Notes under the pieces: model-generated
The model's input: only the letters and a program-made list of their open reading frames with translations
What the model was told of the DNA's origin: nothing
Database searches by the model: none
Assembly (NCBI RefSeq): GCF_021021435.1
Contig: NZ_JAINWI010000005.1
Span: forward strand, 1 to 64,000
Direction of reading: 5' to 3'
DNA from: Seohaeicola saemankumensis
GTDB lineage: Bacteria; Pseudomonadota; Alphaproteobacteria; Rhodobacterales; Rhodobacteraceae
Length of the DNA stretch: 64,000 bases
Program-made: the position numbers and the translations under genes
In this document: in pieces, positions 41,915 to 62,949 of the stretch
Layout: each line of letters begins with the position of its first letter
Numbering within the stretch: the stretch's first letter is position 1

Positions 41915-41924
41915 TGGGAATACC

Positions 41925-43279: not shown

Positions 43280-43309
43280 GTTTTCCGCCGTGTCAGCGGA
43301 ACCGGGATT

Positions 43310-45090: not shown

Positions 45091-45931
45091 CGTGCAACTC
45101 CGTTTCGGATGGCGCTGCCGCGAGGATCAGATCCTCGATATGCAAGGTGGCGGTTCTTAAATCTATGTCCCCGCGTGACAGGCCAGCGTCCGCCACAAGC
45201 CGCGCCCGCGCCAGGGCGGCTAGATCGCCAGAGCAGGCCTGATCGAAAACGGCGCGCACGGCCTCCAGATCCGAAGGATGCAGATGCAGCGCGACAGCGC
45301 CCAGTCCCGTCGATACGCGCGCAGCCAGAGCGGCGATGCGGCGGACAAACGGTTCAGGGGTGGCATCAATGACCTGCCCCGCCCGATCAGCGGCCATTCG
45401 CGCTACGGCCTGATCAAGCGCTGTCGACAGGGCCGCCACTTGCGCGGCTGACGGGTTCGCCAGACGTTCCAAAGCACTGGCCAAAGCGGTCGCAGCCATT
45501 GCAACCGTTTGCCTTTCGCTGTCGAGTTCGGCTAAAGCGGCGGCACGGCCTTCGGCCCGTGCTGTCTCCAACTGCTGGGCGGATGGAGTGGTGTTGTCCT
45601 GCATAGCGGGACGAAGCGCACTGGGCGTAGTCTCGATCCGTGGCTCTGTCGGAGCCGCGGGCTCTGATTGCGTCGGGGTTTGGGTGCCCGCGCTGTGATC
45701 GTCGGCCACCGTAGCAGCAGCCATTTCCGCGGTCGCGGCAGCCTCTTTCGCGGCTGTTTCAACACTTAAATCGGTTGCCATGACATGCACCGGAACCGCA
45801 CGAAAACTGTCGGCACCCTGTGGGGTTTGCAAGCCGGATTGTTTCAGAAAAACCGACATCTGCCCGCTATCCTTTTTGTCTGGAAGGAAGGCTTTCGCTT
45901 CGGTCATATCGCGCAGGAAACTGCCATCCAT
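45080..45931 (-). CDS. fliH: Flagellar export regulator FliH
   Basis: About 283 aa. A Pro/Thr/Ala-rich N-terminal half (about 45-125) is followed by a helical region and the C-terminal FliH/YscL domain ('VSTGLGAVALHLHPSDLEAV', 'DAGLSRGDIDLRTATLHIED'), which binds the N-terminus of FliI and the C-ring. The ATG at 45931 is used; a TTG at 45937 is better spaced to the GGAG at the end of fliG and would add two residues. Confidence 0.85.
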   Translation of the reverse strand: MDGSFLRDMTEAKAFLPDKKDSGQMSVFLKQSGLQTPQGADSFRAVPVHVMATDLSVETAAKEAAATAEMAAATVADDHSAGTQTPTQSEPAAPTEPRIETTPSALRPAMQDNTTPSAQQLETARAEGRAAALAELDSERQTVAMAATALASALERLANPSAAQVAALSTALDQAVARMAADRAGQVIDATPEPFVRRIAALAARVSTGLGAVALHLHPSDLEAVRAVFDQACSGDLAALARARLVADAGLSRGDIDLRTATLHIEDLILAAAPSETELHDAG

Positions 45932-45933
45932 GA

Positions 45934-46938: not shown

Positions 46939-46951
46939 GGCGTTTGTCCTG

Positions 46952-48646: not shown

Positions 48647-48674
48647 AAGTTGAAACCTTAGTTTTCGGGCCGCG

Positions 48675-48974
48675 TCAGAGCGGCATGTTCATAATGTCGC
48701 GGTAGGCGCCAAGCGCCTTGTTCCGCACGTTCAGTGTCAACTGGAACCCCAGCGAGGCAACTTGCTGGTCGACCATCACAGCCGCCAGATCCTGCTCGAT
48801 CCCCATCTCCCATGCTTTGGCGGACTGCGAGGCTTGCGCCTGCGATGCCTTGAGCTGGTCCAGCGCCGTTTCGATCCTGTCGCCAAAGCCCTTTGCTGCC
48901 TCGGCAGGTTTTGCGGTCTGCGCGGGTTGCAGGGGAACCAGATTAAAGCCGCTTCCAACGGGTCCGATTGTCAT
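48675..48974 (-). CDS. fliE: Rod-MS ring junction protein FliE
   Basis: A 99-aa protein. The C-terminal helix 'VMVDQQVASLGFQLTLNVRN' followed by 'KALGAYRDIMNMPL' is the FliE signature. It is the first axial protein assembled and joins FliF to FlgB. It follows fleT by 10 bases. Confidence 0.94.
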   Translation of the reverse strand: MTIGPVGSGFNLVPLQPAQTAKPAEAAKGFGDRIETALDQLKASQAQASQSAKAWEMGIEQDLAAVMVDQQVASLGFQLTLNVRNKALGAYRDIMNMPL

Positions 48975-48984
48975 GGTGTTACCC

Positions 48985-50157
48985 TCACACAGCCTCGGCG
49001 AGGCGCATATGGTTTCCCATTTGGGTCAGAAAGCTCGGGTTGGAGGGCATCCGCAGACCCGTTCCGGTGTCCAGAAGGATATCCTCGATCCCGATGGTCT
49101 GCCCGTCACACAAAACCAGCGCGCGCTGGATGACATTTTCAAGCTCGCGCACATTGCCGGTCCAGTTGTGGCGGCGCAACGCTGCCATCGCCTCGGGGGT
49201 GAACAGCGGGGGCGTGCTATCGCGCCAGTGGCGGCGCAGCAACGAGACGGCTAGCGCGGCAATGTCTTCGGGACGTTGTGCAATGGCGCGCGTTGTCAGC
49301 GGGAAGACATGCAGACGGTAGTACAGATCTTCACGGAAGCGGCCTTCGCGCACTTCCAGCGACATGTCACGGTTGGACGTGGCGACAATACGGATATCCA
49401 CGGCTACTTCCTCGGAAGAGCCCAGCGGCGTGACACGCCGTTCCTGAATCACGCGCAGCAGTTTGCTTTGCAATCCAAGCGGCATTTCCGAGACTTCGTC
49501 CAGTAACAGCGTGCCGCCATCCGCAGCGCGGATCAGCCCGCGATTGGCTGTCGCCGCGCCGGTGAAAGAACCCTTCTCATGCCCGAACAGCATCGCTTCC
49601 AGCATGTTTTCGGGAATGGCGGCGCAGTTGATCGCCACAAAGGGCTTGTCGGCGCGGCGGCTGGCGGCGTGGACCGAACGGGCCAGGACTTCCTTGCCGC
49701 TGCCGGTCGGCCCGTTGATGAACACAGTGACATCGGTGCGGGCTACGCGTTCGGCCAGATCAATCAATGAACCTGTTGCCGGATCGCAAGCGACCATCGG
49801 GCGCAGCGGGGCTGCAAGGATATCGACCAACATCAGCAGTGCAGGATCGTGCAAGGGGTCGCAGGAGGCGGCAGGCGTGGGCAAAGAGATGCGGATCAGA
49901 CGCGCGCCCAACTCGCTTTCGATGGCGAAGGTCTCTGCATTTTCGCGCAGGATCACAAGGCTGCGGATACCGGCGGCGCGTGCCGCATCCTGCGCGCGAC
50001 GCTCTGTGATGGCGTCGGCGGCTGTTGCGACAAACATGACTGCCCCGCATCCCCGTTCTGCAACACCGCGCGTCACGCCGATCCGGCGCCGCTGCAGCAG
50101 CTGCTCCAGAGCATCTGCCGAGGAGAACTGGGGATCGAGAAAATGCAACTTGGTCAT
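48985..50157 (-). CDS. fleT: Sigma-54 activator FleT lacking a DNA-binding domain
   Basis: A 390-aa AAA+ activator. An N-terminal domain of about 105 residues, unlike a canonical receiver (no phospho-acceptor pattern), precedes the sigma-54 domain: Walker A GPTGSGKE (149-156), GSFTGA loop (196-201), Walker B LLLDEV. The protein stops about 30 residues after the AAA+ domain with no Fis-type helix-turn-helix. In R. sphaeroides, FleT is likewise devoid of a DNA-binding domain and acts in complex with FleQ; the position directly before fliE matches too. The ATG at 50157 has AAGGA; a TTG two codons earlier is less likely. Confidence 0.9.
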   Translation of the reverse strand: MTKLHFLDPQFSSADALEQLLQRRRIGVTRGVAERGCGAVMFVATAADAITERRAQDAARAAGIRSLVILRENAETFAIESELGARLIRISLPTPAASCDPLHDPALLMLVDILAAPLRPMVACDPATGSLIDLAERVARTDVTVFINGPTGSGKEVLARSVHAASRRADKPFVAINCAAIPENMLEAMLFGHEKGSFTGAATANRGLIRAADGGTLLLDEVSEMPLGLQSKLLRVIQERRVTPLGSSEEVAVDIRIVATSNRDMSLEVREGRFREDLYYRLHVFPLTTRAIAQRPEDIAALAVSLLRRHWRDSTPPLFTPEAMAALRRHNWTGNVRELENVIQRALVLCDGQTIGIEDILLDTGTGLRMPSNPSFLTQMGNHMRLAEAV

Positions 50158-50191
50158 GGTCAAATCCTTTTACGTCACCTGAACTTGTTAA

Positions 50192-50207
50192 GGCAGGAAC
50201 CATGCCA
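50192..50207 (-). promoter_or_regulatory. Sigma-54 promoter of fleT-fliEFGHIJ
   Basis: The minus strand reads TGGCAT-GGTTC-CTGCC, with correct GG/GC spacing, 35 bases before the fleT ATG. Confidence 0.72.
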
Positions 50208-50381
50208 AACCCCGCGTTTTAGAGGAGTCTCGAAAGATACTGCTCTCTTTCTGCGGAATCCTGCGGTGTGACTGGATTTTGCATGGAAATAGGGAGGGTA
50301 AACGCTGTCGGAAAACCCGAAAACAGCATTGCTATGAAAGGACTTGACGGAAATTCGACGCTCGAAAGCCTGCCTGCCTGG

Positions 50382-50417
50382 TCCGAAAGGATGGGTCGCT
50401 GCACCGAAAGGATGGGG
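50382..50417. promoter_or_regulatory. Two direct CCGAAAGGATGGG half-sites upstream of fleT
   Basis: CCGAAAGGATGGG at 50383-50395 is repeated at 50404-50416, so the start-to-start distance is 21 bases (about two helical turns). It is the right half of the palindrome at 26630-26645. It lies about 175-225 bases upstream of the fleT promoter, a normal enhancer distance. Confidence 0.5.
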
Positions 50418-50436
50418 GCTTTCTGAAGGGCGGTGT

Positions 50437-50462
50437 TAAATTTTCCGCCGTTCGGTCGTTAC
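50437..50462 (+). promoter_or_regulatory. Sigma-28-like promoter of the 101-aa gene
   Basis: TAAA-N14-GTCGTTAC has the same spacing as the fliC promoter and 6 of 8 matches in the -10 box. It lies 34 bases before the ATG at 50496. Confidence 0.45.
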
Positions 50463-50495
50463 AGGAACAGATCCTGATCAGACAAGGCCCAGAGA

Positions 50496-50801
50496 ATGCT
50501 CTCAAAAACATATCATTTAAAATTTCCAAGCCTCGATGCTGCACAGATCGCGGCCCCTTTTGTCGTCGAGACATTGGGCAACGCCATTCCGACCTGCAAT
50601 CTTACAGGTCTGAACGTCGTGATCTCGAAAGAAGGCGATGTCTCTATCAACGTCTTCTTCCCCAACATCAACGATCTCAAAGGTTTCGAGAAGAAACACG
50701 GGGGTTTCCTCGACACGATGAAAAAGACGTTCCTGTTTAAATCCAACGGGTTTGACGGTGTCTGCATCTTCAACTTCGACCGGTCCGAAGAAGCTGCATG
50801 A
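50496..50801 (+). CDS. Small unknown protein preceding cheA4
   Basis: A 101-aa soluble protein, not recognised. It appears as alternating strands and helices ('GLNVVISKEGDVSINVFFPN', then 'LDTMKKTFLFKSNGFDGVCI'), with no signal peptide or membrane helix. A sigma-28-like promoter precedes it and a sigma-54 promoter for cheA4 begins 12 bases after its stop. After its stop the same frame stays open up to cheA4. A chemotaxis or motor-linked role is inferred only from position. Confidence 0.7.
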   Translation: MLSKTYHLKFPSLDAAQIAAPFVVETLGNAIPTCNLTGLNVVISKEGDVSINVFFPNINDLKGFEKKHGGFLDTMKKTFLFKSNGFDGVCIFNFDRSEEAA

Positions 50802-50813
50802 CGGCGGCTGGAC

Positions 50814-50829
50814 TGGCCCCGAACTTGCA
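50814..50829 (+). promoter_or_regulatory. Sigma-54 promoter of the cheA4-cheA3 operon
   Basis: TGGCCC-CGAAC-TTGCA has exact spacing and the same -24 variant as the site at 4430-4445. The transcript should start near 50841, about 78 bases before the cheA4 ATG. Confidence 0.72.
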
Positions 50830-50874
50830 AAAGAGGCTCGGGTTCATCTGTCAAACACATAACCGAAAGAGAAA

Positions 50875-50922
50875 ATGACTCAGTATCGTCGCCAGTCCTG
50901 CAACAGGTTGCTGCGCTCATGA
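50875..50922 (+). other. Possible 15-codon leader reading frame overlapping cheA4
   Basis: ATG at 50875, preceded by AAAGAGAAA, opens a 15-codon frame whose TGA overlaps the cheA4 ATG (ATGA). The alternative cheA4 frame over the same bases reads SPVLQQVAALM and also looks protein-like, so this may be a coupling leader peptide or the sign of a frameshift at the true cheA4 start. Confidence 0.35.
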
Positions 50923-52130
50923 GTGCCGCCGGTCCCGAGATTGCTCCCGAGGGCGGGCTCATGCGTGTGCCGTCCGAACGGATTGGCCGGCTCATGGATC
51001 TGGTGGCGGAACTGTCTTTGTCGGTGGCCGAGACCGTCCGGTCGCCCGATCTTGTCGGGCTGGAGCTGTCGCATTTCGAAACGGCGGTGCACCGGTTGAT
51101 GATGATCGTCCGAGAGGTGCAGGACGCGGCCACGGATATGCGTCTGGTGCCTGTCGACGAGGTGTTCAAACGCCTGCGGCGCATGCTGCGGGAGCTTGAG
51201 CGTCAGACAGGCAAGAAAATCGAGATGGATATTCAGGGTGCCGAAACTCAGATCGACAAACTGGTCGCGGACCGTCTGTATGATCCGCTGCTGCATGTCT
51301 TGCGGAATGCTGCCGATCACGGGCTTGAACCGCCGCAGGATCGTGTTGCTGCCGGTAAGCCTGAAATCGGTAGTATCATCCTGTCAGCGGCACAGGTCGG
51401 CAGCGAGGTCCGGATCGTTGTCGAGGATAATGGTCGTGGCCTTGACCGTGAACGCATCCTGCACAAGGCACGCGAGCGCGGTTTCTTCGGTCCGGACGAA
51501 GAACCAGAGCCAGCCGCATTGTGGAAGGTGATCTTCGAGCCCGGTTTCTCGACCGCCGAAAATGTCTCCAACCTGTCGGGGCGCGGCGTGGGAATGGACG
51601 TTCTCAACACGACAATGGCGGCTTTGCGCGGCCGCATCGTGGTCGACAGTGCTGCGGGGCAAGGGACTCGCGTTTCCCTGCATATTCCGGTGTCGCTGGC
51701 CTTTCTGGATTGCATCATCCTGCGTCTCGGGCCGCGCCTTTTTGCGGTGCCTGTCGACATGGTCGCGGAAATCGCCTGTCCGGGTCCGCATGATCTGCCA
51801 AAGCTCTCGGCGGGTGGCGGGCAGGAGCTGTTCCGCCTGCGTGGTGGCAGTATTCCGGTTTGCCGGCTCGAGAATTTCTTTGACGGAATGCAGGCCGAGC
51901 CGCGCAGCATGGACGCCCCGCCGCAGGTCATCGTCGTGTTCCAGACCTCCAACGGCCCCCTCGCTGTGCCGGTCGACGAAATTCTGGATCGTCAGCAGGT
52001 TGTCATGAAACCGCTGGTAGGAAGGCTTGCACAAGTGCGGGCAAGTTATGGCTGCGCTCTTCTTGGCACTGGCGAGGTTGCACTTGTGCTGGATTGCGAA
52101 CGGCTGGGTGCCGTGGGCGGTCTGCCATGA
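50919..52130 (+). CDS. cheA4: Chemotaxis kinase CheA4 without P1/P2 domains
   Basis: A 403-aa CheA lacking the phospho-accepting P1 and the CheY-binding P2 domain. Domains: dimerisation P3 (about 15-75), ATP-binding P4 with N-box 'LLHVLRNAADHG' (Asn130), G1 DNGRGLD (170-176) and G2 GRGVGMD (221-227), and a CheW-like P5 (about 260-400). It can bind ATP but must phosphorylate another protein's P1. In R. sphaeroides CheA4 phosphorylates His51 of CheA3, encoded here at the end of the same operon. cheR3 starts inside its stop codon (ATGA). Confidence 0.93.
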   Translation: MSAAGPEIAPEGGLMRVPSERIGRLMDLVAELSLSVAETVRSPDLVGLELSHFETAVHRLMMIVREVQDAATDMRLVPVDEVFKRLRRMLRELERQTGKKIEMDIQGAETQIDKLVADRLYDPLLHVLRNAADHGLEPPQDRVAAGKPEIGSIILSAAQVGSEVRIVVEDNGRGLDRERILHKARERGFFGPDEEPEPAALWKVIFEPGFSTAENVSNLSGRGVGMDVLNTTMAALRGRIVVDSAAGQGTRVSLHIPVSLAFLDCIILRLGPRLFAVPVDMVAEIACPGPHDLPKLSAGGGQELFRLRGGSIPVCRLENFFDGMQAEPRSMDAPPQVIVVFQTSNGPLAVPVDEILDRQQVVMKPLVGRLAQVRASYGCALLGTGEVALVLDCERLGAVGGLP

Positions 52131-52951
52131 CGGTAATGCGCACAAGCGAACAGGACGGTTTCCAGACGATCAAGCGCTGGCTGGAAGACCGCTGTGCGAT
52201 CCACTACCCCGACCACAAGCGCAACTTGCTGCAACAAAGACTGGCGCGGGTTCAGCGATCTTTCGGGATGCCCGATTTTGCGAAGCTGGCCTATGAGATC
52301 ATGCAGGCCCAGAACCATGAGGTTCAGCTTGCTGTCATGCATGCGGCCTCGACCAATCACACCTATTTCTACCGTGAAAAGGATGTGCTCGAGCATTTCC
52401 TCGGCAATGTTTTGCCGCAGCTTGCCCAACGCAACGAAATCCGTCTGTGGAGCGCGGCATGCTCGTCGGGTGACGAAGTCTATACACTGGCCATTATGAT
52501 TGCCGAAACGCTTGGCATGGACACACTCAGGCGCACGACGATCCTTGGAACCGATATCAGCGCGCCGGTGATCGAGCTTGCAGAAAAAGGGGTGTATCCG
52601 GCGCGGCATCTGGAACAGGTGCCAGCGCATATCAAGTCGAAATACATGCAGCCCGTCGGGATCGGTCATTTCCAGATCGTGCCCGAGATCCGCCAGGCCT
52701 GCACATTCCGGCGCATGAACCTCAAGACGACACCCTTCCCCTTCCGCAAGCCGTTTCAGGCCGTCTTTTGCCGGAATGTTCTGTATTACTTTACCCATCA
52801 GGATCAGATCGAAGTGGTCGAGACCATCGCCGACCATGTCGAGGATAACGGCTGGCTGTTCACCAGTGTGACCGAGTCGGTGCGCGACCTGTCACCGCGC
52901 TGGCGGCAGATCATCAGTGGCGTTTCCCGCAAGAGAGGGGTTGCCACATGA
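52127..52951 (+). CDS. cheR3: Chemoreceptor methyltransferase CheR3
   Basis: A 274-aa SAM-dependent methyltransferase that methylates receptor glutamates. An N-terminal helical domain ('HKRNLLQQRLARVQRSFGMP'), the 'ASTNHTYFYREKDVLEHF' motif, the SAM site 'IRLWSAACSSGDEVYTLAIM' and 'TILGTDISAPVIELAEKGVY' all match CheR. The ATG at 52127 overlaps the cheA4 stop, and its own stop overlaps cheB2. Confidence 0.94.
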   Translation: MTVMRTSEQDGFQTIKRWLEDRCAIHYPDHKRNLLQQRLARVQRSFGMPDFAKLAYEIMQAQNHEVQLAVMHAASTNHTYFYREKDVLEHFLGNVLPQLAQRNEIRLWSAACSSGDEVYTLAIMIAETLGMDTLRRTTILGTDISAPVIELAEKGVYPARHLEQVPAHIKSKYMQPVGIGHFQIVPEIRQACTFRRMNLKTTPFPFRKPFQAVFCRNVLYYFTHQDQIEVVETIADHVEDNGWLFTSVTESVRDLSPRWRQIISGVSRKRGVAT

Positions 52952-54054
52952 ACACTCTGTCAACGCGCCGCGCGGCCGTGCGTGTTCTGATCGTCGATGA
53001 TTCAGCGATGATCCGCAAAGTTCTGTCCATGGGGCTGTCGACCGATCCGATGATCGAGGTGGTCGGCACCGCCTCGGGTGCGGAACAGGCATCCGAGATG
53101 ATCCGCGATCTCAGACCTGAAGTGATGACGTTGGATATCGAGATGCCCAGGATGGACGGTGTCACCTTCCTGCGCCAGTTGATGCCGGTTAACCCGCTGC
53201 CAACCGTGATCATCTCAAGCGCCACGCAACGTGGTGCCGCGGTGACACTTCAGGCTTTGGAAGCGGGTGCCGTAGATGTCATCGCAAAGCCGTCGCTTGC
53301 TGTGGATACCGGCCTCAAGGATATCATGGCCGACGTCTGCCGCAGGGTGCGTGCCGCGGCTCTTGCCCGCCCCTCACAAATGGCAGGTTGGGTGTTGCCG
53401 ATGGGGGTAAGACCCCCGTCGCGGCATCCGGAGAACCGGATCATTGCCATTGGTGCATCAACAGGCGGGGTGCAGGCTTTGGCCCGCGTCTTGCACACGA
53501 TGCCCCAAGACGCACCGGGGATCGTTATCGTGCAACATATGCCACAAGGTTTCACCAAGGCATTTGCCGACCGTCTGAACGCCGAATTGCAAATCAATGT
53601 GCGCGAGGCGCAGGATGGTGACCGGGTTCAGTCCGGTGTCGCGCTGATCGCGCCGGGTGGGTCGCGTCATATGGTTCTGGCTGGGACTGGCCCGCATTGG
53701 CGTGTTTCGTTGGTCGAAGGCGATCCTGTCTGCTTTTCGCGCCCCGCTGTCGACACCCTGTTCCATTCTGTTGCCCGTCATGCCGGCAAACAGGCCAGTG
53801 CGGCACTGCTGACGGGCATGGGCAAGGATGGTGCCGCAGGGTTGCTGGCGATCAGACATGCCGGTGGAAACACGCTCGCGCAGGACGAGGCGACTTCGGT
53901 TGTCTGGGGCATGCCTGCTGCGGCCGTAGACCTGAACGCCGCAATGTCGGTGAAACCGCTTGATGCCATCGGCCCCTCGCTTCTGGCCGCGGCAGCCAAC
54001 CCTGTTGCGCGCGGCACATATCGTTTCAATTCGCAGGAAGGAACTGCATCATGA
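52948..54054 (+). CDS. cheB2: Chemoreceptor methylesterase CheB2
   Basis: A 368-aa response regulator. The receiver domain (VDDSAMIRK, acceptor Asp63 in TLDIEMP, Lys about 114) is joined to the methylesterase domain with catalytic Ser171 (GASTGG), His197 (VQHMPQG) and Asp294 (GMGKDGA). Phosphorylated by CheA3-P it removes receptor methyl groups. It overlaps cheR3 and cheW4 by 4 bases each. Confidence 0.95.
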   Translation: MNTLSTRRAAVRVLIVDDSAMIRKVLSMGLSTDPMIEVVGTASGAEQASEMIRDLRPEVMTLDIEMPRMDGVTFLRQLMPVNPLPTVIISSATQRGAAVTLQALEAGAVDVIAKPSLAVDTGLKDIMADVCRRVRAAALARPSQMAGWVLPMGVRPPSRHPENRIIAIGASTGGVQALARVLHTMPQDAPGIVIVQHMPQGFTKAFADRLNAELQINVREAQDGDRVQSGVALIAPGGSRHMVLAGTGPHWRVSLVEGDPVCFSRPAVDTLFHSVARHAGKQASAALLTGMGKDGAAGLLAIRHAGGNTLAQDEATSVVWGMPAAAVDLNAAMSVKPLDAIGPSLLAAAANPVARGTYRFNSQEGTAS

Positions 54055-54578
54055 TGAACCAGACCACACCAGCGACGGCGTCGCAGGACGCTTTGATGGC
54101 CGCAGATCTGGAGACCGATACGATCGCGGACATGTATCTGACCTTTGATATCGGACCCGAGGAATACGGTGTTGGTATCGCGGGCGTGACCGAGATTGTC
54201 GGCATGCAGCGGATCATGCCCATTCCGGATATGCCGGACTACCTTAAAGGTGTGATCAATCTGCGTGGCAAGGTCATCCCGCTGATGGATGTCCGCCTGC
54301 GCTTCGGGATCGTGGAACGTTCCTATGACGACCGGACTGTGATCATCGTGATGGAGGTGGGAGACGCCCCCATAGGTCTGATTGTAGACGGCGTGCGCGA
54401 GGTCCGCGAGATCGCGGCCAGCCAGATCGACAGCCATGCGCAATTCGGGCGCGGGCAGGGACGTCAGGTCATTGCCGGAATCGGGCGTCTGGACGGCGGT
54501 GTTGCCGTTTTGCTTGACCCTTCCGTTCTGGTGTCCGACGGCGATCTCGCGCTTGGTCGCGACAAGGGCGTGGACTGA
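54051..54578 (+). CDS. cheW4: Chemotaxis coupling protein CheW4
   Basis: A 175-aa SH3-like coupling protein. 'YLTFDIGPEEYGVGIAGVTE', 'MPDYLKGVINLRGKVIPLMD' and 'RFGIVERSYDDRTVIIVMEV' are standard CheW features. It links the cytoplasmic receptor TlpT to CheA4 and CheA3. It is coupled to cheB2 and ppfA by overlapping stop and start codons. Confidence 0.95.
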   Translation: MMNQTTPATASQDALMAADLETDTIADMYLTFDIGPEEYGVGIAGVTEIVGMQRIMPIPDMPDYLKGVINLRGKVIPLMDVRLRFGIVERSYDDRTVIIVMEVGDAPIGLIVDGVREVREIAASQIDSHAQFGRGQGRQVIAGIGRLDGGVAVLLDPSVLVSDGDLALGRDKGVD

Positions 54579-55303
54579 TGCGCGTTCTGATCCACAATCA
54601 GAAAGGCGGCGTCGGCAAGACGACCACGGCGGCTAATCTGGGCGCGGCCCTTCTGCGCGGCCGTCTTGCCAGACATGTTGTATTGGCGGATCTGGACCCG
54701 CAAATGCACCTTACGGCTATGCTGACCCCTGCCAGATCAACGCCGGATTGGACCGTGTCCGACTGGCTTGCGGGCCGGCCCGGTCAACCCGTCGCCATCG
54801 AGGGCGAAAAGGGTTTGCTGCTGGTACCTGGAACGGACGCTCCGGTGCAGAACGTGGCGCCGCAGCCTGACACATTCAAGAAGAGCTGGACGCTGATCGA
54901 CAGCGCGCCTGCATGGTCCGATCACACGGCGGTGCTGAGCCATTGGGCAGAGATCATCCTCTGTCCGCTCGAACCAGATTTTCTGGGCTTGTCGGGCGTC
55001 AGCCGTCTGCTAATGCGCTTTGCCGAAATCGGTGTCCCGCGCGCGCGTCTGCGCTTTTTGCTGTGCCGCTACTCGGCGCGCCTGTCCGTGCACCGCGATG
55101 TGCGTGCCAAGCTTGTCGAGCGGCTTGGGCCGGAACTCGTGCTTCCTGTCACGGTGCGCAGTTCTGTCCGCCTGTCCGAGGCGCCGGGCTTCGGACAGAC
55201 AATATTCCGTCATGCGCCCGCAAGCACCGGATGTGCGGATTATACCGCGCTCGCGCGTCTTCTGGCGCGACCCGCTGCCCAACCCAGCCTGAGGAGTGCC
55301 TGA
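54578..55303 (+). CDS. ppfA: ParA-like chemosensory cluster positioning ATPase PpfA
   Basis: A 241-aa ParA/MinD-type ATPase with the deviant Walker A KGGVGKTT (9-16), the switch-like 'VVLADLDPQMHLTAML' and 'LIDSAPAWSDH' (in place of the usual DxPP). In R. sphaeroides the protein at this position segregates the cytoplasmic chemosensory cluster on the nucleoid and acts through the TlpT N-terminus. The gene order here is the same. No parB-like gene is nearby, consistent with TlpT being the ParB substitute. Confidence 0.9.
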   Translation: MRVLIHNQKGGVGKTTTAANLGAALLRGRLARHVVLADLDPQMHLTAMLTPARSTPDWTVSDWLAGRPGQPVAIEGEKGLLLVPGTDAPVQNVAPQPDTFKKSWTLIDSAPAWSDHTAVLSHWAEIILCPLEPDFLGLSGVSRLLMRFAEIGVPRARLRFLLCRYSARLSVHRDVRAKLVERLGPELVLPVTVRSSVRLSEAPGFGQTIFRHAPASTGCADYTALARLLARPAAQPSLRSA

Positions 55304-57291
55304 TGACCGGCCAGAAAAAAACGACACGCAAACCGTCTGCCCGCGCAGGACTTGGCAAAGACCCGCTTGCATGGGTCGTGCCGCCCGCCGCGGTCGAGAT
55401 TGCAGCACAATTGCCCGAAGACCTGCCGGAAACGGCCGCCAAACCTTTTCTCGCAGACGATACCCCCCATCCAGCGGACAACCTCCAGCCTTCAAGGACC
55501 AACGCCATGACCAATGACAACGAAGATCTGCTCCAGTGGGACAAAATCCCTGCAATGGATGCCCTCAACGTCTTGTTTAACCCTATTACTATTGCTGATG
55601 CGGACGCCATAATCCGCTTCGCCAACGAGGCAGCCTATAAGATGTTCGAAGCGATGGAGACCAGTATCCGCCGCGACCTACCGAATTTTGTAGCGCGCGA
55701 TATCGTGGGTCAATGCATCGACGTATTCCATAAGAATCCGGCCCATCAGCGCCAGATGATGAACGGTATGAAGTCCCTGCATGAAGGTAAGTTCGTTCTG
55801 GGTGGTAATTCTCTTTCCTTCCGCGCAACGCCTATCTTGCAGAAGAATGGTCAGTTGGTATCTGTCTTTGTTGAATGGCAAGACCAGACTTCGGCCGTTG
55901 CGGAACAACACCAGATCGCCAATCTGATCACCGAAATCCAGAAAATGTCCGAAGCCCATGCCAACGGGATGATCAGCCATTTCATTCCGGTTGACGGAAT
56001 GGACGACAGAGCGCGGATCGTGGCTGAAGGCACAAACCAGATGGTTCTGGGACATATCGAGACCAAGAAGAAGGTGCTTGCCTGCGTGTCGGAATTCGCC
56101 AAGGGCAATTTTGACGCCCAGATCGAGAAATTCTCGGGCGAGCGCTACTTTATCAACGATGGTATTGAGGCGATCCGCGAGAGCTTCAAGAAAGTCACGT
56201 CGGAGATCCTGCGTTTCTGTGACGAATTGGCAATCGGCAATCTGGATCAGCAGATTGATCTCGACGGGTTCACCGGCGACTATCGGACGATCGTGGATAC
56301 GATGGAACGGGCCTTGGTGTCTTTGAACGAGACGATCTCGGCGGCCAGCCAGCAAATCCAGCAGATTGCGATCACGGTCGAACAGATGTCGCAATCGAGC
56401 CAATCGCTGGCGACGAACTCTCAGATCCAGTCGTCGTCAGTTGACGAGGTTTCGGCCTCAACCGAGCAGACCAACGCACAGGTCAAAGCCAACGCGGCCT
56501 CTGCGGATACGGCATCCAAGCTGGTCAGCGGCGCGGCTGTGGCAGCAGATGACGGCACCAGGAAGATCGCCGAGATGGTGCAGGCGATGGAAGGCATCCG
56601 CGGCTCGTCGCTGGATATCGCAAAGATCATCAAGGTGATCGACGAAATCGCCTTCCAGACCAACCTTCTGGCGCTTAACGCGGCGGTCGAGGCGGCACGC
56701 GCAGGCCAGCACGGGCGCGGTTTCGCAGTCGTAGCGCAAGAAGTTCGGAATCTGGCAGGACGTTCTGCCAAAGCGGCACGCGAGACTTCGGACCTGATTG
56801 ATGATGCCTCGACCCGCGTGAAATCCGGTGTGCGGATTGCCGACGAAACGCGGCAGGCCTTTACTAAGATTGCCGGAGACATCGGTCAGGTCAAAGAGCT
56901 TGTGAATGACATCGCGATTGCCAGCGAGGAACAGGCCCGCGGCGTGACTCAGGTGACCGCGGCCATCGGCGAAGTGGCAAGATCGGCCCTGACGACCAGT
57001 CAGCAGGCTGACGAGTTGGCGGCAAGCGCCACCCAGATGTCGAGTGCCACCGAAATGATGCGCCGTGACTTCAACCGCTACAAGCTGCGCAAGGTCACCG
57101 CGCCTAAACCCAGCGCCACATCGCTTGAGGATCTCTCGCCCGAGATGCTGGCACAACTCCGCAGCATGATGATGGCACAATTCGGGTCGAACCATCCGGC
57201 CGGCAATGACCGGAGCAAGATGAACGGGACGCATGCAGCCGCGTCAAATGCCAACGTCGACCGCGATGAACGCGGATTTGCAGACTTCTGA
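55303..57291 (+). CDS. tlpT: Cytoplasmic chemoreceptor TlpT
   Basis: A 662-aa chemoreceptor without any membrane helix. A basic, disordered N-terminus of about 75 residues (MTGQKKTTRKPSARAG) would contact PpfA. A PAS domain (about 82-195) and two HAMP-like segments (about 215-330) follow, then the methyl-accepting signalling domain with tip 'EIAFQTNLLALNAAVEAARA' (about 448-467). The final 70 residues are flexible and end in DERGFADF, reminiscent of a CheR/CheB-docking tail. The ATG at 55303 overlaps the ppfA stop; the longer frame runs inside ppfA and is rejected. Confidence 0.93.
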   Translation: MTGQKKTTRKPSARAGLGKDPLAWVVPPAAVEIAAQLPEDLPETAAKPFLADDTPHPADNLQPSRTNAMTNDNEDLLQWDKIPAMDALNVLFNPITIADADAIIRFANEAAYKMFEAMETSIRRDLPNFVARDIVGQCIDVFHKNPAHQRQMMNGMKSLHEGKFVLGGNSLSFRATPILQKNGQLVSVFVEWQDQTSAVAEQHQIANLITEIQKMSEAHANGMISHFIPVDGMDDRARIVAEGTNQMVLGHIETKKKVLACVSEFAKGNFDAQIEKFSGERYFINDGIEAIRESFKKVTSEILRFCDELAIGNLDQQIDLDGFTGDYRTIVDTMERALVSLNETISAASQQIQQIAITVEQMSQSSQSLATNSQIQSSSVDEVSASTEQTNAQVKANAASADTASKLVSGAAVAADDGTRKIAEMVQAMEGIRGSSLDIAKIIKVIDEIAFQTNLLALNAAVEAARAGQHGRGFAVVAQEVRNLAGRSAKAARETSDLIDDASTRVKSGVRIADETRQAFTKIAGDIGQVKELVNDIAIASEEQARGVTQVTAAIGEVARSALTTSQQADELAASATQMSSATEMMRRDFNRYKLRKVTAPKPSATSLEDLSPEMLAQLRSMMMAQFGSNHPAGNDRSKMNGTHAAASNANVDRDERGFADF

Positions 57292-57299
57292 ACCAAACT

Positions 57300-57323
57300 G
57301 CCGCCGGGCTCCTCCCTGGCGGC
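57300..57323 (+). repeat. Hairpin between tlpT and cheY6
   Basis: GCCGCC (57300-57305) pairs with GGCGGC (57318-57323), with inner GG/CC pairs and no T-run. It may stabilise the tlpT transcript or partly attenuate read-through to cheY6-cheA3. Confidence 0.5.
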
Positions 57324-57348
57324 CCCCGAAACCACGGAGAAATGACAA

Positions 57349-57753
57349 ATGTCCTATAATGTAATGATCGTCGATGATGCCGCGATGATGCGCCTCTATA
57401 TTTCAAGCTTTATCAAAGGTTTGCCGGATTTCAAAGTTGTGGCGCAAGCCGCCAATGGCCAAGAGGCGCTGGACCGTCTGGCCAATGGTGCCGAGGTTGA
57501 CTTGATCCTTCTCGATATCGAGATGCCAGTGATGGACGGGCTTGAATTCCTGCGTCATGCCAAGCTGAAGACGCGTGCCAAGATCTGCATGCTGTCTTCT
57601 GTCGCGGTATCCGGCTCGCCTCACGCGGCGAAGGCACGCGAGTTGGGGGCCGATGGTGTGGTGGCCAAACCGTCCGGCACAGTGTCCCACGATCTTGAAG
57701 AGAAAACCGGCGATGAACTGGCAAGCACGATGCGTGCTGTCATGGCAGCCTGA
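57349..57753 (+). CDS. cheY6: Chemotaxis response regulator CheY6
   Basis: A 134-aa single receiver domain. Acidic pocket DD (9-10), acceptor Asp56 in LLDIEMP, Ser/Ser near 84-85 and Lys (AKPSG) near 104. The insertion between the last beta strand and helix 5 ('SGTVSHDLEEKTGD') is longer than in ordinary CheY, a feature reported for R. sphaeroides CheY6. It is the main motor-binding regulator and partner of CheA3. Confidence 0.93.
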   Translation: MSYNVMIVDDAAMMRLYISSFIKGLPDFKVVAQAANGQEALDRLANGAEVDLILLDIEMPVMDGLEFLRHAKLKTRAKICMLSSVAVSGSPHAAKARELGADGVVAKPSGTVSHDLEEKTGDELASTMRAVMAA

Positions 57754-57791
57754 TCCGTCTTTTCCGAAACACCGGCAGAAAGTAATGCGGC

Positions 57792-60700
57792 ATGTCTGAC
57801 GAAATGGATGAAATCTGGGCCTTGTTCGTCGATGATGGCGCACAGGCAATGGATGCGATGGAAACCGCTCTTCTGGCGCTGGAAAAAGCCACGGGCGAGC
57901 AACAGCCCCCCCATATCTCGGCCTTGTTCAGGGCTGTGCATACTTTCAAGGGAAACTCGCGTGTTCTGGGATTGGGGGTCGTAGAAAGCCGCGCCCATCT
58001 GGCAGAGGACTTGATCGGTCTGGTTCGGGATAGCGGCGTTCCGCTTGATGCCGAAATCCATGCGCTGCTGTTGGAAACCGGCGACAAATTGCGCGACATG
58101 CTGGAAACAACCGGCACAACACGCGCTGATGCCGATCCTGCGGATACCGAAAACCTTGTGCAGCGGTTGCGCGACAAGATCGCGCGCTGCACTGCACCTG
58201 TTGATGCAGATTTGCCGGTAGCGGATGCCGTGGACATGGTTGCGCCTGTTGGGGAAATTGATCGGGATCCTGACGCCCCCGACGCCGCCCCAGAGGATGC
58301 TGCACTGACGGATGCGCCGTCGGGCGATAGCCCTGATACGAGAACTGATAGGATTGTCCCGATTGATGAACCGGCACCCGTGGCGCGCAAAGAAACTTCG
58401 CGCCTTGCCGATGATCCCGTCTATCGCAAGATTTTCGACGATATGGCAGCAGATGCCCTTGTGAAACTGACCACGGCCAGCATGAACGAGGATGCAGCCG
58501 AGGCCTGCAACGCTGTTACCCGCGTAATCCGTGATCTGGATCATGCGGCCACCCAACTGGGCCTCGATGAATGGTCGGCGATGCTGTGCGGTTTTGCAGA
58601 CATGCCAGATCCGGTTGATGCCACCATCTTGATAGATGCCATCTCAAAACAATCCCAGACCGATGCATCAGGGCAAGCCGTCGCGCCGGCTACGGCACCC
58701 GATCGGGGTGGTTTTTTCTCGCAACTGGAAGAACCGCTATCCATCATCGCGCATATCGGCATAAGCCTGTCCACCGGCGAACAGATTGATACCAGCGCCA
58801 GGGAACAGGCGATTGCACAGATATGCCAAGCGGCGGATCGTTTTGGCTATGTACGTGTTTCTTTTGCAGCCGACCTGCTGCGTTCATCCCAAACTCCCGC
58901 CGCATATCGCCGACAGGAACTGAACCTTTACGAAGAGCTTGCTTCGGTCGAGGCTGTTCTGGGTCAGAACAGCGATGAAGACGGAATGAGCCCTGCGTCG
59001 CTTCTGGCCAGTTGGTGTGCGGATCATGTTTTTGACACGCTGGACGAGCTTGACCAGACGTTGGAACGGATGCGCCTTGGCAAACTGGAAGGCGGCGGCC
59101 AGCGGGAGTTGGAGCGTCTTGTGCGCCTCGTGCACCATGCGTGCCGCCACTACGACCTTGTTACCGCCTCGCAACTTGCGATGTCCCTGCTGGATCTGTT
59201 CGGACGCGGCCATGCGCATGGCAAAGGCCCTGACGCCATCCTGATGCGCATTGCGCGCGGCTTTATCGACACGCTGGAGCTTGTCTTCGACGCGCTGCGT
59301 GTCGGCGAAGCGCCGGATACCGAACGGCTGGAGCAGCTGTTTCAGGAAGCTTCTGAAGTCGGCTTCACAGGGGCCGGTGTGCTGACGGCTACAGCGGTCG
59401 AGCGTAGGCTCGGCTTGCCTGCGGAATTCCATCGGGTGCTGTCCCCCGAAAGCACGCGCGCAGCCGCCGAGGCGATAGCAGCGGGACGGCAGTTCTATAT
59501 CCTGCGTGCCGATGTGAACGATGACAACGAACTGGCCGAGGCCCTGTTTGTCTTTATCGGGTCGGGTGCGATTCAGGCCATTACCAATGTGACCGTCTTT
59601 CAGGGGCAAAACACGCTGTTCGATTTCCTGATTTCAACCGCGCTGGACGAGATGGCTTTGGCTGAGGCAATGGCGAACATGGACCCCGGCGGCAAACGTC
59701 TTGTGATTCTGCGCCACCTGTCCCTGTCCGAGGAAGAGCAGGACGCAACCTCCGGCAACACAACGGATGCCGCCGAGCCAGGACTTGACACGGCGGCCGG
59801 TCTGGAACTCTCGACCGGTATACTTGAGCAGATCGGTGAGATCGCCGCCGGTCAGGCTATGGTACACGGGATGCTGTCCGAACTGGTCGAGGACGATCTG
59901 GCGCAATCCGTGGATTCGGTTCTGCGTCTTCACGGGCATGACCCACAACAGGCGCGCGCCGCTCTCAAGGGGCTTGCGGACACGGTGATGGACCGGCTTC
60001 GCAACATGGCGCAGATCGAGACCCAGCTTCTGGGCCATATGGCAGAGTTGCAACAAACCACCGCCGAATTGCGCGCGCGTCCGGTCGAAACCGTGTTGCG
60101 GCCTTTGGTTGCGATGGTTGCGACGCAATCCCGCCGCAACGGACGGGAAGCGCGGCTGACAACCGTCGGTGCGGAGATGACACTGGATATTGCTGTTCTG
60201 GAAAGTCTGAAGCGCTTGCTGAGACCATTGGTGATGGGGCGGTTATCCCTTGGTGATGCCGCACCGCGCAGGTTACATCTGTCGGTAAACCGCAGTGACG
60301 ATCAGCTTTCGGTGACGCTGGACGATGATGGCCGCGAGCCTCTTGATGCAGAGGATTCCGCCAAACTGAACGCCGATCTCGGCCGTGTTGGTGGTCGTCT
60401 GCGCCATGTGCGTCTGCCCGATCTGGGGCAGCGTTATCACATTAACCTGCCGATGAACCTTGTGGTATTGGAAGGCATGGTGGTCGGGGCAGGAGCTACG
60501 CGATATGTGCTGCCCGTTGATGCGATAAGAACCATTCTGCAACCAGATCCCAAGGCGCTGTTCACGCTTGCCATAGACGGCGGGCAACGCATGTTGCGGC
60601 TAAGCGCTGACGAGGTGATCTCGGTGCGCGCCCTGCCCAAGGCAAAGGTTGACGAAGATATTCTGACCCTTGAGGATACCGCAACAGATGAAGACCTGTC

Positions 60701-60950
60701 CGTCATCGACGGAATGAACAAGGTTCACATCATTCTGGGGCGCGCAGGCCAAAGCGTGGCGATCCCCGTCGATGATCTTGTGGGGCAGCAACTGGTTCTC
60801 TTGCGTCCGCTCAAGGGCGTTATGTCCAAGCTAAAGAATATCTCGGGCGTGGCTTTGCTTTCGGGTGGCGATGTCGGGATGGTTCTCTCTCCTCGCGCCT
60901 TTTGCGCCGGAAGCGACGATATGCCGGAAGCAACACTTCTGGCGGGATAG
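57792..60950 (+). CDS. cheA3: CheA3: P1 and P5 joined by a long non-kinase region
   Basis: A 1052-aa protein. The N-terminal Hpt (P1) domain has phospho-His50 in 'LFRAVHTFKGNSRVLG'. The C-terminal CheW-like P5 domain is about 890-1050. The roughly 780 residues between lack any intact kinase signature. In R. sphaeroides CheA3 is phosphorylated by CheA4 and the equivalent region is a phosphatase for CheY6-P; the same is inferred here. Residues about 750-890 look like decayed P3/P4 domains ('LQQTTAELRARPVETVLRPL', 'LESLKRLLRPLVMG', 'LSVTLDDDGREPLD'), with N-box Asn and both glycine boxes lost. A second Hpt-like helical segment without His lies near 212-275. Confidence 0.92.
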   Translation: MSDEMDEIWALFVDDGAQAMDAMETALLALEKATGEQQPPHISALFRAVHTFKGNSRVLGLGVVESRAHLAEDLIGLVRDSGVPLDAEIHALLLETGDKLRDMLETTGTTRADADPADTENLVQRLRDKIARCTAPVDADLPVADAVDMVAPVGEIDRDPDAPDAAPEDAALTDAPSGDSPDTRTDRIVPIDEPAPVARKETSRLADDPVYRKIFDDMAADALVKLTTASMNEDAAEACNAVTRVIRDLDHAATQLGLDEWSAMLCGFADMPDPVDATILIDAISKQSQTDASGQAVAPATAPDRGGFFSQLEEPLSIIAHIGISLSTGEQIDTSAREQAIAQICQAADRFGYVRVSFAADLLRSSQTPAAYRRQELNLYEELASVEAVLGQNSDEDGMSPASLLASWCADHVFDTLDELDQTLERMRLGKLEGGGQRELERLVRLVHHACRHYDLVTASQLAMSLLDLFGRGHAHGKGPDAILMRIARGFIDTLELVFDALRVGEAPDTERLEQLFQEASEVGFTGAGVLTATAVERRLGLPAEFHRVLSPESTRAAAEAIAAGRQFYILRADVNDDNELAEALFVFIGSGAIQAITNVTVFQGQNTLFDFLISTALDEMALAEAMANMDPGGKRLVILRHLSLSEEEQDATSGNTTDAAEPGLDTAAGLELSTGILEQIGEIAAGQAMVHGMLSELVEDDLAQSVDSVLRLHGHDPQQARAALKGLADTVMDRLRNMAQIETQLLGHMAELQQTTAELRARPVETVLRPLVAMVATQSRRNGREARLTTVGAEMTLDIAVLESLKRLLRPLVMGRLSLGDAAPRRLHLSVNRSDDQLSVTLDDDGREPLDAEDSAKLNADLGRVGGRLRHVRLPDLGQRYHINLPMNLVVLEGMVVGAGATRYVLPVDAIRTILQPDPKALFTLAIDGGQRMLRLSADEVISVRALPKAKVDEDILTLEDTATDEDLSVIDGMNKVHIILGRAGQSVAIPVDDLVGQQLVLLRPLKGVMSKLKNISGVALLSGGDVGMVLSPRAFCAGSDDMPEATLLAG

Positions 60951-60968
60951 CAGCCCGTTGCCAACGCC

Positions 60969-61012
60969 CCGATAGCAAAGCAGCCCTGCACTATACGTGG
61001 GACTGCTATCGG
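60969..61012 (+). terminator. Long hairpin after cheA3
   Basis: CCGATAGCA (60969-60977) pairs with TGCTATCGG (61004-61012), with further CCC/GGG and CAC/GTG pairing inside. There is no T-run, so termination is only possible. Confidence 0.5.
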
Positions 61013-61043
61013 TATGTCTCGAACAGTGCAGGCAGCAGAAAAG

Positions 61044-61072
61044 AAAAAACCCGCCGCTATTCCAGCGGCGGG
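61044..61072 (-). terminator. Intrinsic terminator of fliS
   Basis: CCCGCCGCT (61050-61058) and AGCGGCGGG (61064-61072) form a 9-bp stem; on the minus strand it is followed by six T residues. Confidence 0.93.
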
Positions 61073-61099
61073 GATTTGGCGTTGAAACCGGTCGTCAGA

Positions 61100-61489
61100 C
61101 TACGCGGGTTTGGCCATGCCGGACCATGCCTCGCGCAAGCTGCGGATGAATTGCGCGGCCTGCGTCAACCCTGCATCCGACCCTGCTTCGTTGCGGAATG
61201 CGCTGATCAGGTGCTGCCTGCAATATTCATAGACCTGAAACAGGGCAGGGGCGATCTCGCCGCCGCGCTCGAAATCAAGGCTGCTTTGCAGCAGGTAGAT
61301 TGAGGACATCGCCTTGGTCATGGCGGAAGATGACAAAGGCCGTGAAGCCTCAGCAGCGACACTCAGCGTTTCCAGCGCTGCCTGCAGTTCCGTTAGGGCC
61401 ACCCCGATCACCGCATGGGCATCATCGGGGATATTCTGATCGGCCTGCTCGGCGCGGCGATAAGATTTCTGGGCAAGCTGAAGGCTCAT
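61100..61489 (-). CDS. fliS: Flagellin export chaperone FliS
   Basis: A 129-aa helical protein. The conserved segment 'MSSIYLLQSSLDFERGGEIA' followed by 'LFQVYEYCRQHLISA' identifies FliS, which binds the C-terminus of flagellin before export. It stands apart from fliD and fliC but has its own sigma-28-like promoter and terminator, so it is an independent filament-class gene. Confidence 0.9.
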   Translation of the reverse strand: MSLQLAQKSYRRAEQADQNIPDDAHAVIGVALTELQAALETLSVAAEASRPLSSSAMTKAMSSIYLLQSSLDFERGGEIAPALFQVYEYCRQHLISAFRNEAGSDAGLTQAAQFIRSLREAWSGMAKPA

Positions 61490-61534
61490 GTCATCCTCTG
61501 TTTTTCAGGTGCGGCTCTTGCCGCTTATTCTGAA

Positions 61535-61561
61535 TTAACGGTCGGATGCGAATTTAATTTA
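61535..61561 (-). promoter_or_regulatory. Sigma-28 promoter of fliS
   Basis: The minus strand reads TAAA-N15-ACCGTTAA, about 46 bases before the fliS ATG, in the gap after the LuxR-type regulator. Confidence 0.78.
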
Positions 61562-61585
61562 CATCTGCGTCACAAACTTGGCCCG

Positions 61586-62290
61586 TCAGGCAATCCCCAG
61601 ATCACGCGCAAGCACGACAGCATGGGTGCGGTTTTGCGCACCCAATTTGCGGCAGATGGCGGTGACATGCATCTTTACCGTGGGTTCCGCCAGATCAAGT
61701 TCGTTGGCGATCTCCTTGTTGGCCTTGCCTTCGGCTAGATAGGTTAGCACTTCCATTTCCTTGTCGCTCAACTGGCCGTTCCGCAGGGCAGGTTGCGGTT
61801 GTGACTGCGCGCTGATCAACTCCAGCGGCAGGTAACGCTCGCCCGAGTTGATGAACTGGATCGCATTCGCAAGACTGCGGGCCGGCGTCGTCTTTAGGAT
61901 GACGCCGGCAGCACCTGCGCCCATGATTTCTTGCAGCATCCGTGGCGTCGGGTTCGACGTGATGATCGCGACGGGGTTGCCCTCATTCAACCGCAATGCG
62001 CGTTTGAGTCCGGCAATACCGTTCATGCCAGGCATGTTCAGATCCAGCAACACAACGTCGAACGGGCCTTCCTTCTGGATAACCAGGGCCGCTTCATCGA
62101 AGGAATCCGATGTAGTGACATCCATCCCTGCCGAATCTGACAGGAACATGGCAAATACATCAAGGATCATCCGATGGTCATCAGCCAGCAAGACCCGCAA
62201 GCGCGCTGGCGAGGCGCTGTTGTTGGACCTGCCATTCTCCAGATCCGCGCGTGCGGTGTCCCGCATTGTGTTGCTCATACGACTGTTCAT
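61586..62290 (-). CDS. LuxR/NarL-type response regulator
   Basis: A 234-aa two-domain regulator. After a flexible N-terminus (about 30 residues) comes a receiver domain with ADDH (36-39) and acceptor Asp83 (LLDLNMPG). The LuxR helix-turn-helix is 'LAEGKANKEIANELDLAEPT' then 'VKMHVTAICRKLG'. The start at 62290 has GGAG 8 bases upstream. No cognate kinase is adjacent. Its position at the edge of the flagellar island suggests, but does not prove, control of motility or of the switch between lifestyles. Confidence 0.88.
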   Translation of the reverse strand: MNSRMSNTMRDTARADLENGRSNNSASPARLRVLLADDHRMILDVFAMFLSDSAGMDVTTSDSFDEAALVIQKEGPFDVVLLDLNMPGMNGIAGLKRALRLNEGNPVAIITSNPTPRMLQEIMGAGAAGVILKTTPARSLANAIQFINSGERYLPLELISAQSQPQPALRNGQLSDKEMEVLTYLAEGKANKEIANELDLAEPTVKMHVTAICRKLGAQNRTHAVVLARDLGIA

Positions 62291-62949
62291 ATTGTGGCTC
62301 CTTCCAGCGCAGGACTGACCCGAAAATATGCCGTGACGCCTAAGAAAAAGCACGGACCATCGCCAGTAAGGCGGTCGTCGCCAAACTGGTTAATGGTCTT
62401 CATATTATGCAAGGATTTTTGGCAATTTTGTCCGGATGACCGGACTGTTCGGACAATTACCCAATTGCAGTCAATCATTTCTTTACCCAGTACTAAGAGA
62501 GTTACTCATACTATTGTCAGCAAATAGTGGCGACATTTTGATCAGTCCACGGTTCGAACGTATGGCATTATTGTCTTTTGATACCTGCCCATCTGAAAGG
62601 CAGGTCTATGCGGTCAATTTGAAGCTGTTTCCTTCCGAAAAACCCTTTGAGTCCGTGAGTGTTTACTTTTCAGCGGACTCTTTGTCCGCCATCGACGCTT
62701 GCGAGCCACGTGCTTGCGGTGGCTGTCCGACATCACCTGAGCCGTTTGCAAGATCCGGACCGTTCAGACGGCGCACGACCGAGCAGATTGGCAAGTCTTC
62801 ACCTTCTTGCACTCCGACAGGAAAACCGCGGCAGGGATGTTCTCTAACAATGGAAGTACTCTGTTCACAAACTGCCTAAATTTTACCAGTTGATAAAAAA
62901 TAGAATCGTGGAATACTGATCCTAACAAGAGACAACAGGAGAGGTTGGG
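62291..62949. other. Gap without a confident gene
   Basis: About 660 bases. The composition is more AT-rich from about 62390 to 62600. A 147-codon open frame at 62436-62879 (plus) has no Shine-Dalgarno, odd residue use (many Cys, Ser, Pro, Arg) and no recognisable domain, so it is not called. The region should hold the promoters of the regulator and of preT, and it marks the outer border of the island. Confidence 0.5.

Follow-up and report, generated by a model that had tools for sequence, protein, structure and literature searches.

Is a chemotaxis operon that lies against a set of flagellar genes a self-contained sensing machine dedicated to one motor, and were motor and operon inherited together? 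We addressed this question for eight chemotaxis genes in the first 64,000 bases (1-64000) of contig C45 of Seohaeicola saemankumensis (a genome of 4.09 Mb in 75 contigs), a stretch that we call the window. We found that the window operon is an orthologue of cheOp3 of Rhodobacter sphaeroides and thus a known kind of system, as a first-pass annotation of the window had recognized. The genome that we take to be R. sphaeroides (G094), which has three che clusters, carries these genes in an identical order, and orf101, fleT, fliF, fliG, fliI, fliM, flhB and rpoN are found on the far side. Our overall reading, to which we assign a probability of roughly 0.88, is that this cheOp3 orthologue would build a cytoplasmic chemosensory array that stops the neighboring sigma-54-type motor, that the operon joined the flagellar island and then moved with it, and that there were several joint losses or gains of PpfA and a tag on TlpT.

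The flagellar genes adjoining the operon were confirmed as real, and island-type FlhA, RpoN, the sigma-54 activators FleQ and FleT, and FlgT are all present in the window island, which is of the fla3 type (R. sphaeroides Fla1). The first-pass annotation had presented the physical fusion of operon and island as a distinction of this genome. This does not hold, given the order found in G094 and a published fla1 locus of R. sphaeroides that includes tlpT, cheA4, cheA3, cheW4, cheR3, cheB2 and cheY6 (PMC7277832). Because the fetched stretch contains flagellar genes in 27 of 30 named CheA3 loci, the other three being contigs of 5.4-8.5 kb, the linkage is the rule and as such ordinary.

The eight genes occupy 50919-60950 on the plus strand in the annotated order cheA4-cheR3-cheB2-cheW4-ppfA-tlpT-cheY6-cheA3. 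Five of the seven junctions overlap (by 4, 4, 4, 1 and 1 bases), in agreement with the claim that most do so by 1-4 bases, while the final two gene pairs are separated by 57 and 38 bases. CheA4 (50919-52130) is a P3-P4-P5 kinase half, for which the Pfam scan gave HATPase_c (59.5 bits) and CheW (74.2 bits), only 20.0 bits for H-kinase_dim (P3), which is under the cut-off of 23, and no Hpt. Its N, G1 and G2 boxes are found in all 34 CheA4 sequences, that of the window included, and the description of CheA4 as ATP-binding without P1 was thereby borne out. CheA3 (57792-60950) combines a P1 domain (Hpt, 43.8 bits) with a long middle, a degenerate P3-P4 and a CheW-like end (27.3 bits). Its predicted phosphorylation site was correctly named as His50, which lies within HTFKG; either HTFKG or HTVKG is present in 41 of 42 CheA3 proteins. 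The further statement that CheA3 has no kinase domain holds for function but not for sequence. Residues 752-1042 (60045-60917, plus strand) align with the P3-P4-P5 part of CheA2, residues 303-630, in hhalign (99.5% probability, using an alignment of intact CheA), and the stretch preceding the G2 box is missing in this profile alignment. By this comparison, the middle of CheA3 is a degenerate kinase region, predicted to be functionally without a kinase domain.

The remaining products likewise fit their assigned roles. On the plus strand, cheR3 (52127-52951, with ATG at 52127 or 52136) encodes a methyltransferase (Pfam CheR, 161.7 bits), cheB2 (52948-54054) a methylesterase with a receiver domain (Pfam), cheW4 (54051-54578) an adaptor (Pfam CheW, 130.1 bits), and cheY6 (57349-57753) a receiver with Asp56 (Pfam and residues). 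The gene ppfA (54578-55303), placed between cheW4 and tlpT, encodes a ParA-like ATPase, as had been proposed: it matches Pfam CbiA (55.9 bits), contains KGGVGKTT and is 50-62% identical to 11 relatives. TlpT (55303-57291) is a receptor with MCPsignal (168.8 bits) and HAMP_N3 (62.7 bits) domains. Its top 19-residue mean hydropathy is 1.05 and therefore, by hydropathy only, no membrane helix is predicted, consistent with the annotation. At its C terminus, an aromatic-x-x-aromatic tail follows RG in all 37 TlpT proteins with a readable end, reading RGFADF in the window. Because this tail resembles CheR docking tails, we propose GFADF (57274-57288, plus strand) as a candidate CheR3 docking peptide. 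Variants of the operon were also encountered. In strain QY30 (L020, 6279-6861), the start of orf101 joins cheW4 directly, cheA4, cheR3 and cheB2 being missing and ppfA, tlpT, cheY6 and cheA3 still present. Three operons (L018, L033 and L034) have no tlpT between cheW4 and cheY6. At L211 (297-3500, genome G320), CheA3 was matched as two separate pieces with a P1-bearing frame of 632 codons, and the gene may be broken or split.

The first-pass annotation began the locus at 50814. This base was rejected as a gene start, as it offers no start codon; the cheA4 frame opens after a stop at 50799 and has its first ATG at 50919. Instead, a sigma-54-type promoter match, TGGCCCCGAACTTGC (50814-50828, plus strand), begins here and agrees with the sigma-54 consensus at 9 of 10 positions. 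In the gap upstream of cheA4, a score of at least 8 of 10 was reached in 24 of 34 loci, the window included, versus 2.5% of shuffled gaps. No clear enrichment was seen upstream of orf101, either for sigma-54 (matches of at least 8 in 3 of 35 versus 5% of shuffles) or for sigma-28 (mean score 9.9 versus 9.5), and an Rfam scan of 48000-64000 returned no family.

With the domains, catalytic residues, gene order, promoter match, linkage and orthology established here, the mechanism described in R. sphaeroides (PMC6829392, PMC10924463, PMC9198570) can be projected onto the window. CheA4 would bind ATP and phosphorylate His50 of CheA3, which would hand the phosphate to Asp56 of CheY6 and to CheB2. 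Phosphorylated CheY6 would then bind FliM and stop rotation, and the degenerate middle of CheA3 would dephosphorylate it; both the transfer from CheA4 through CheA3 to CheY6 and the phosphatase activity on CheY6-P are known from R. sphaeroides (PMC6829392, PMC9198570). TlpT and CheW4 would build the array, CheR3 and CheB2 would adapt it, and PpfA would tie it to the nucleoid via the TlpT N terminus, in keeping with the reported positioning of the cytoplasmic cluster of R. sphaeroides on the nucleoid by PpfA (PMC10924463, PMC3964821).

The positioning component is not a constant part of such operons. Among the 36 operons readable from cheW4 to cheY6, the window included, ppfA is present in 12 and absent in 24, and thus does not define the cheOp3 type (species of Tabrizicola and Marivivens are among those without it); L209, L212 and L213 were omitted as repeats of L040, L028 and L026. 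A whole-genome search of 21 named genomes found a PpfA orthologue in 6 (50-59% identity), while in the remaining 15 the longest ParA-like matches reached 30-39%, with pieces of at most 87 residues, mostly of the Walker end, reaching up to 58%. On the che tree, which has 34 rows, L020 and L042 being excluded for lack of cheA4 at those loci, the state of ppfA changes five times, and four of these changes are forced by starred branches. The receptor varies with it. Leaving aside the three operons without tlpT, [DN]PLxW occurs within the first 70 residues of TlpT in 10 of 12 operons with ppfA and in none of 21 without it (9 of 11 and 0 of 20, respectively, on the che tree). In the window the motif is DPLAW, residues 20-24 (55360-55374, plus strand), and in TlpT of R. 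sphaeroides it reads DPLDW. The two exceptions with ppfA (L028 and L211) keep DPL and have no Trp, and eight receptors from operons without ppfA keep DPL[DA], also with no Trp. In R. sphaeroides, PpfA has been reported to act through and associate with the TlpT N terminus (PMC3964821), which is described as rich in positive charges (PMC7993993). We regard the [DN]PLxW tag as a candidate PpfA site on TlpT.

Alternatively, the association could reflect shared ancestry only, the tag marking a lineage rather than a function. Such a lineage marker would sit well with the two ppfA-bearing receptors that have no Trp and with the small number of independent pairs: only four lie on starred branches, so that the median sign-test p of 0.125 cannot reach 0.05. 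It would sit less well with the five changes of ppfA state, with the independent pairs, in which tag and ppfA agree in direction in an average of 3.8 of 4 and are never opposed, and with the R. sphaeroides association just cited. Moreover, basic residues are equally common in both groups (4-9 in the first 40 residues with ppfA, 4-10 without), unlike the tag. We consider shared ancestry alone a somewhat unlikely explanation. A more novel possibility, to which we give a little under even odds, is that positioning is a plug-in module, in which PpfA and the [DN]PLxW tag as a docking site are lost or gained as a unit and lineages that have neither would tether the array in another way. On this view, the small protein encoded by orf101 would also be a part of the system that has so far escaped description, and one as strongly constrained as CheY6. 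In two operons without ppfA (L038 and L220), the receptor in the place of tlpT has hydropathy peaks of 3.03 and 2.48, respectively, and is therefore probably membrane-spanning.

The annotation had further taken the fusion as pointing to joint inheritance of motor and operon. In a survey of 390 genomes of the order, island-type FlhA was found in 20, and the operon together with close orf101 homologues in 15 of these. Neither a high-identity orf101 nor a CheA3 orthologue was found in the other five (G005, G085, G261, G323 and G371) despite their island FlhA. Reading the site directly in G085 and G261 showed a spacing of about 1.2 kb between fleT and fliS that contains no che gene, and the two stretches read of an Octadecabacter plasmid island (3.5-90 kb of 118 kb) contained no che genes. 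In G005, 31 stretches that were contig ends or whole short contigs yielded only fliM, fliP, fliR and flhB of the island, in addition to a flhF-flhA-flgP-flgT piece; this island is broken up or badly assembled, and we do not score the genome as having cleanly lost the operon. In a tree of FlhA for which six further proteobacterial FlhA proteins served as the outgroup, the Octadecabacter plasmid and G085 with G261 fall outside a clade of 36 rows (support 100/99), 33 of which have the operon. Because the islands without che genes are basal on this rooted tree, we read the operon as having probably joined, with moderate confidence, an already acquired island, between fleT and fliS.

After joining, motor and che operon have, on the evidence of the trees, recently travelled together. 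In the 19 genomes with usable RpoB, FlhA and che sequences (RpoB being partial in G406, G394 and G398), tree agreement is highest between FlhA and che, with 11 of 16 splits in common (r = 0.78; partial r given RpoB, 0.67), versus 6 of 16 for RpoB and che (r = 0.55) and 9 of 16 for RpoB and FlhA (r = 0.60). The window pairs with G402 (Frigidibacter) in both the FlhA and the che tree (100/100) and with G406 in the RpoB tree (99/97). RpoB of G406 is only half covered. Approximately unbiased (AU) tests rejected a pairing with G402 for RpoB (p = 0.0002) and one with G406 for both FlhA and che, with p values that are optimistic, since the clades were chosen after the trees had been seen. The claim of joint inheritance thus stands for shared travel and probably fails for acquisition in one piece.

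Acquisition of motor and operon together from one donor, with later loss of the operon from the basal islands, would account for the agreement between the FlhA and che trees, and for the order-wide occurrence of orf101 homologues of at least 65% identity in 15 genomes, all 15 of which have island FlhA. It requires five losses (a loss-only count made by hand), as opposed to one gain and three losses (4 changes, treekit). In addition, 22 of 25 CheA4 plasmid matches among those listed are alphaproteobacterial (37-40% identity), in a set biased in composition (452 records, 135 of them from Pseudomonas) and with a CheA tree that is not resolved, whereas the best gammaproteobacterial match of island FlhA is at 48%. 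A single joint acquisition appears to us rather unlikely. Plasmids yielded no full-length CheA3; the 19 records found align with the P1 region, each over at most 12% of the query and with identities of 29.8-33.7%.

Several points weigh against our overall reading, in which the operon joined the island later and controls its motor. The proposed order of joining depends on a single protein and on a margin of 4 versus 5 steps, the FlhA tree drew a program warning about long outgroup branches, and three genomes without che genes lie inside the che-bearing clade, one of them being G005, described above. Because CheA4 sits on a long branch of the CheA tree, we name no donor for the operon. In ten of the 34 loci, G094 included, the gap upstream of cheA4 lacks a clear sigma-54 match. 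Last, phosphotransfer, phosphatase action, motor stopping and localization are carried over from R. sphaeroides.

Upstream of the cheA4 promoter match lies orf101 (50496-50801, plus strand), which encodes an unnamed protein of 101 residues. Every one of the 34 loci of relatives whose contig reaches there has it, flanked by fleT and the cheA4 promoter region and, in L020, truncated; it thus belongs to the conserved neighborhood of the operon. The protein is 67-90% identical to 21 homologues, with a mean column identity of 87%. Its median identity to the window protein, 84%, is near that of CheY6 (75-94% to relatives, median 88%) and far above that of CheA3 (44%), these medians being taken over best matched pieces and including paralogue cross-matches where a gene is absent, chiefly cheA4 and cheB2. 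The median proportions of synonymous (pS) and nonsynonymous (pN) differences are 0.75 and 0.084 for orf101, which indicates a protein under constraint, and 0.65 and 0.088 for cheY6. Neither Pfam nor NCBIfam gave a match, searches against plasmids gave none, and a profile search of PDB sequences returned two nonsignificant matches (E = 1.4 and 1.6). The AlphaFold model has a modest mean predicted local distance difference test (pLDDT) score of 67.8, and its best PDB match is a dimeric ferredoxin-like protein (E = 7e-4). Five of the 390 genomes contain more distant relatives (20-34% identity), and in three of the four neighborhoods read (L059, L060 and L063) these adjoin a GAF-type gene, the GAF assignment being made by Pfam for the L060 gene only. 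A BLUF-domain gene lies near the distant relative at L059. Our guess is that orf101 encodes a small ligand-binding or signaling subunit.

That the operon is a decaying remnant in the window genome seems most improbable, since all eight frames are intact, CheA3 His50, CheY6 Asp56, the CheA4 N, G1 and G2 boxes and the PpfA Walker A motif are present, and orf101 and cheY6 show the constraint just described, against which stand the CheA3 fragment at a contig start in genus mate G413 and the lack of a strong CheA3 match in five of six genus mates, three of those five assemblies being 72-84% complete. Within the genus of the window organism, a full CheA3 was found in 1 of 7 genomes and a fragment in one more. 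In G413, contig C10 (L147, 54-2765) begins inside CheA3 and continues with fliS and a luxR-type regulator in window order, and no further CheW-domain gene was found in that genome.

The operon is probably not self-contained, contrary to the description of it as a self-contained, dedicated system. Contig C7 of the same genome carries a cheY, an intact CheA of 641 residues, two cheW, one methyl-accepting chemotaxis protein (MCP) gene, a cheR, a cheB and a tlpC-like gene. Except for the MCP gene, this cluster matches cheOp2 of G094 in order (58% identity for CheA, 66% for CheY and 29% for the tlpC-like product). In R. sphaeroides, both expressed che operons have been reported as required for chemotaxis (PMC10924463). 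An intact CheA elsewhere that controls this motor had been named as evidence that would count against a dedicated system; as far as sequence tells, such a CheA exists, and its control of the motor is putative. A fixed pairing of the two operons is not favored by the occurrence of a strong CheA2-like match in 11 of the 20 island genomes and of none in 9. The window genome has six CheW domains, two FlhA genes and three MCPsignal genes. A CheW-bearing cheOp1-like cluster was not found in it, nor was a cheOp1-like CheA among its CheW-domain matches; one CheA of genus mate G067 clusters with CheA1 of R. sphaeroides. At L007 (10448-12145), an MCP gene lies between the two cheW of the cheOp2-like cluster, as it does in G323, G055, G320 and G188 and not in G094.

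Beside the operon, a fleT-like gene for a sigma-54 activator (48985-50163, minus strand) was identified by Pfam and synteny and named by orthology in order to R. sphaeroides. The genes fliM, fliL, fliK, fliJ, fliI, fliH, fliG and fliF of the linked motor occupy 40343-48646 on the minus strand and were named on a mixed basis. Pfam supports fliM, fliK, fliI, fliG and fliF, matches to annotated Octadecabacter plasmid genes identify fliL and fliH, and fliJ was assigned by position only. On the other side, fliS (61100-61489, minus strand; Pfam FliS, 50.7 bits) is followed downstream by a GC-rich hairpin and a T run (61040-61073, minus strand) that, judged by eye, are terminator-like. Farther away, a FlgK-like open reading frame (10977-14993) of 1338 residues is long for FlgK; flgK of the Octadecabacter plasmid island also exceeds 4 kb.

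The operon itself was already known. What we add is that PpfA is optional and linked to a tag on TlpT, that the operon probably joined the island later, and that orf101 belongs to the neighborhood. In our searches of open-licence literature, we found no published account of the patchiness of ppfA in cheOp3, of the TlpT tag or of orf101. Together, these loci provide a natural experiment, in which related cheOp3 arrays with and without a ParA-like positioner can be set side by side, two of them with apparent membrane receptors replacing TlpT. The comparison offers a residue-level test of cargo recognition by a ParA-like ATPase and singles out one unstudied, highly conserved protein, orf101.

Among described systems, the fla3-type flagellar cluster has Fla1 of Cereibacter sphaeroides as its reference, accounts for 23 of 284 clusters and is patchy and horizontally spread (PMC12363192). 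In the sections of that paper available to us, we found no account of the che operon for this type, and the statement that che genes were not observed within Rhodobacterales clusters is made for fla1-type clusters; the present analysis maps where the operon is present and absent. The window CheA3 shares its P1, degenerate P3 and P4, and CheW-like end with the degenerate CheA3 of C. sphaeroides (PMC10542144), for which two further Hpt domains and a P2 have been reported. According to the same source, twenty other genomes of Rhodobacteraceae also encode CheA3 and CheA4. With cheOp3 and Fla1 of R. sphaeroides, as represented by G094, the window shares the gene order, the split CheA3/CheA4 kinase, TlpT, PpfA, CheY6, the fleT-fliF side and orf101. 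It differs in that fliS is inverted relative to the operon in the window and in genus mate G413, and not in the other relatives seen, and in that the identity of the window CheA3, taken over the longer of the pieces matched, is only 44%. R. sphaeroides has been credited with 13 chemoreceptors (PMC2829493), as compared to only three MCPsignal genes in the window genome, whose network would thus be a simpler form of that in R. sphaeroides.

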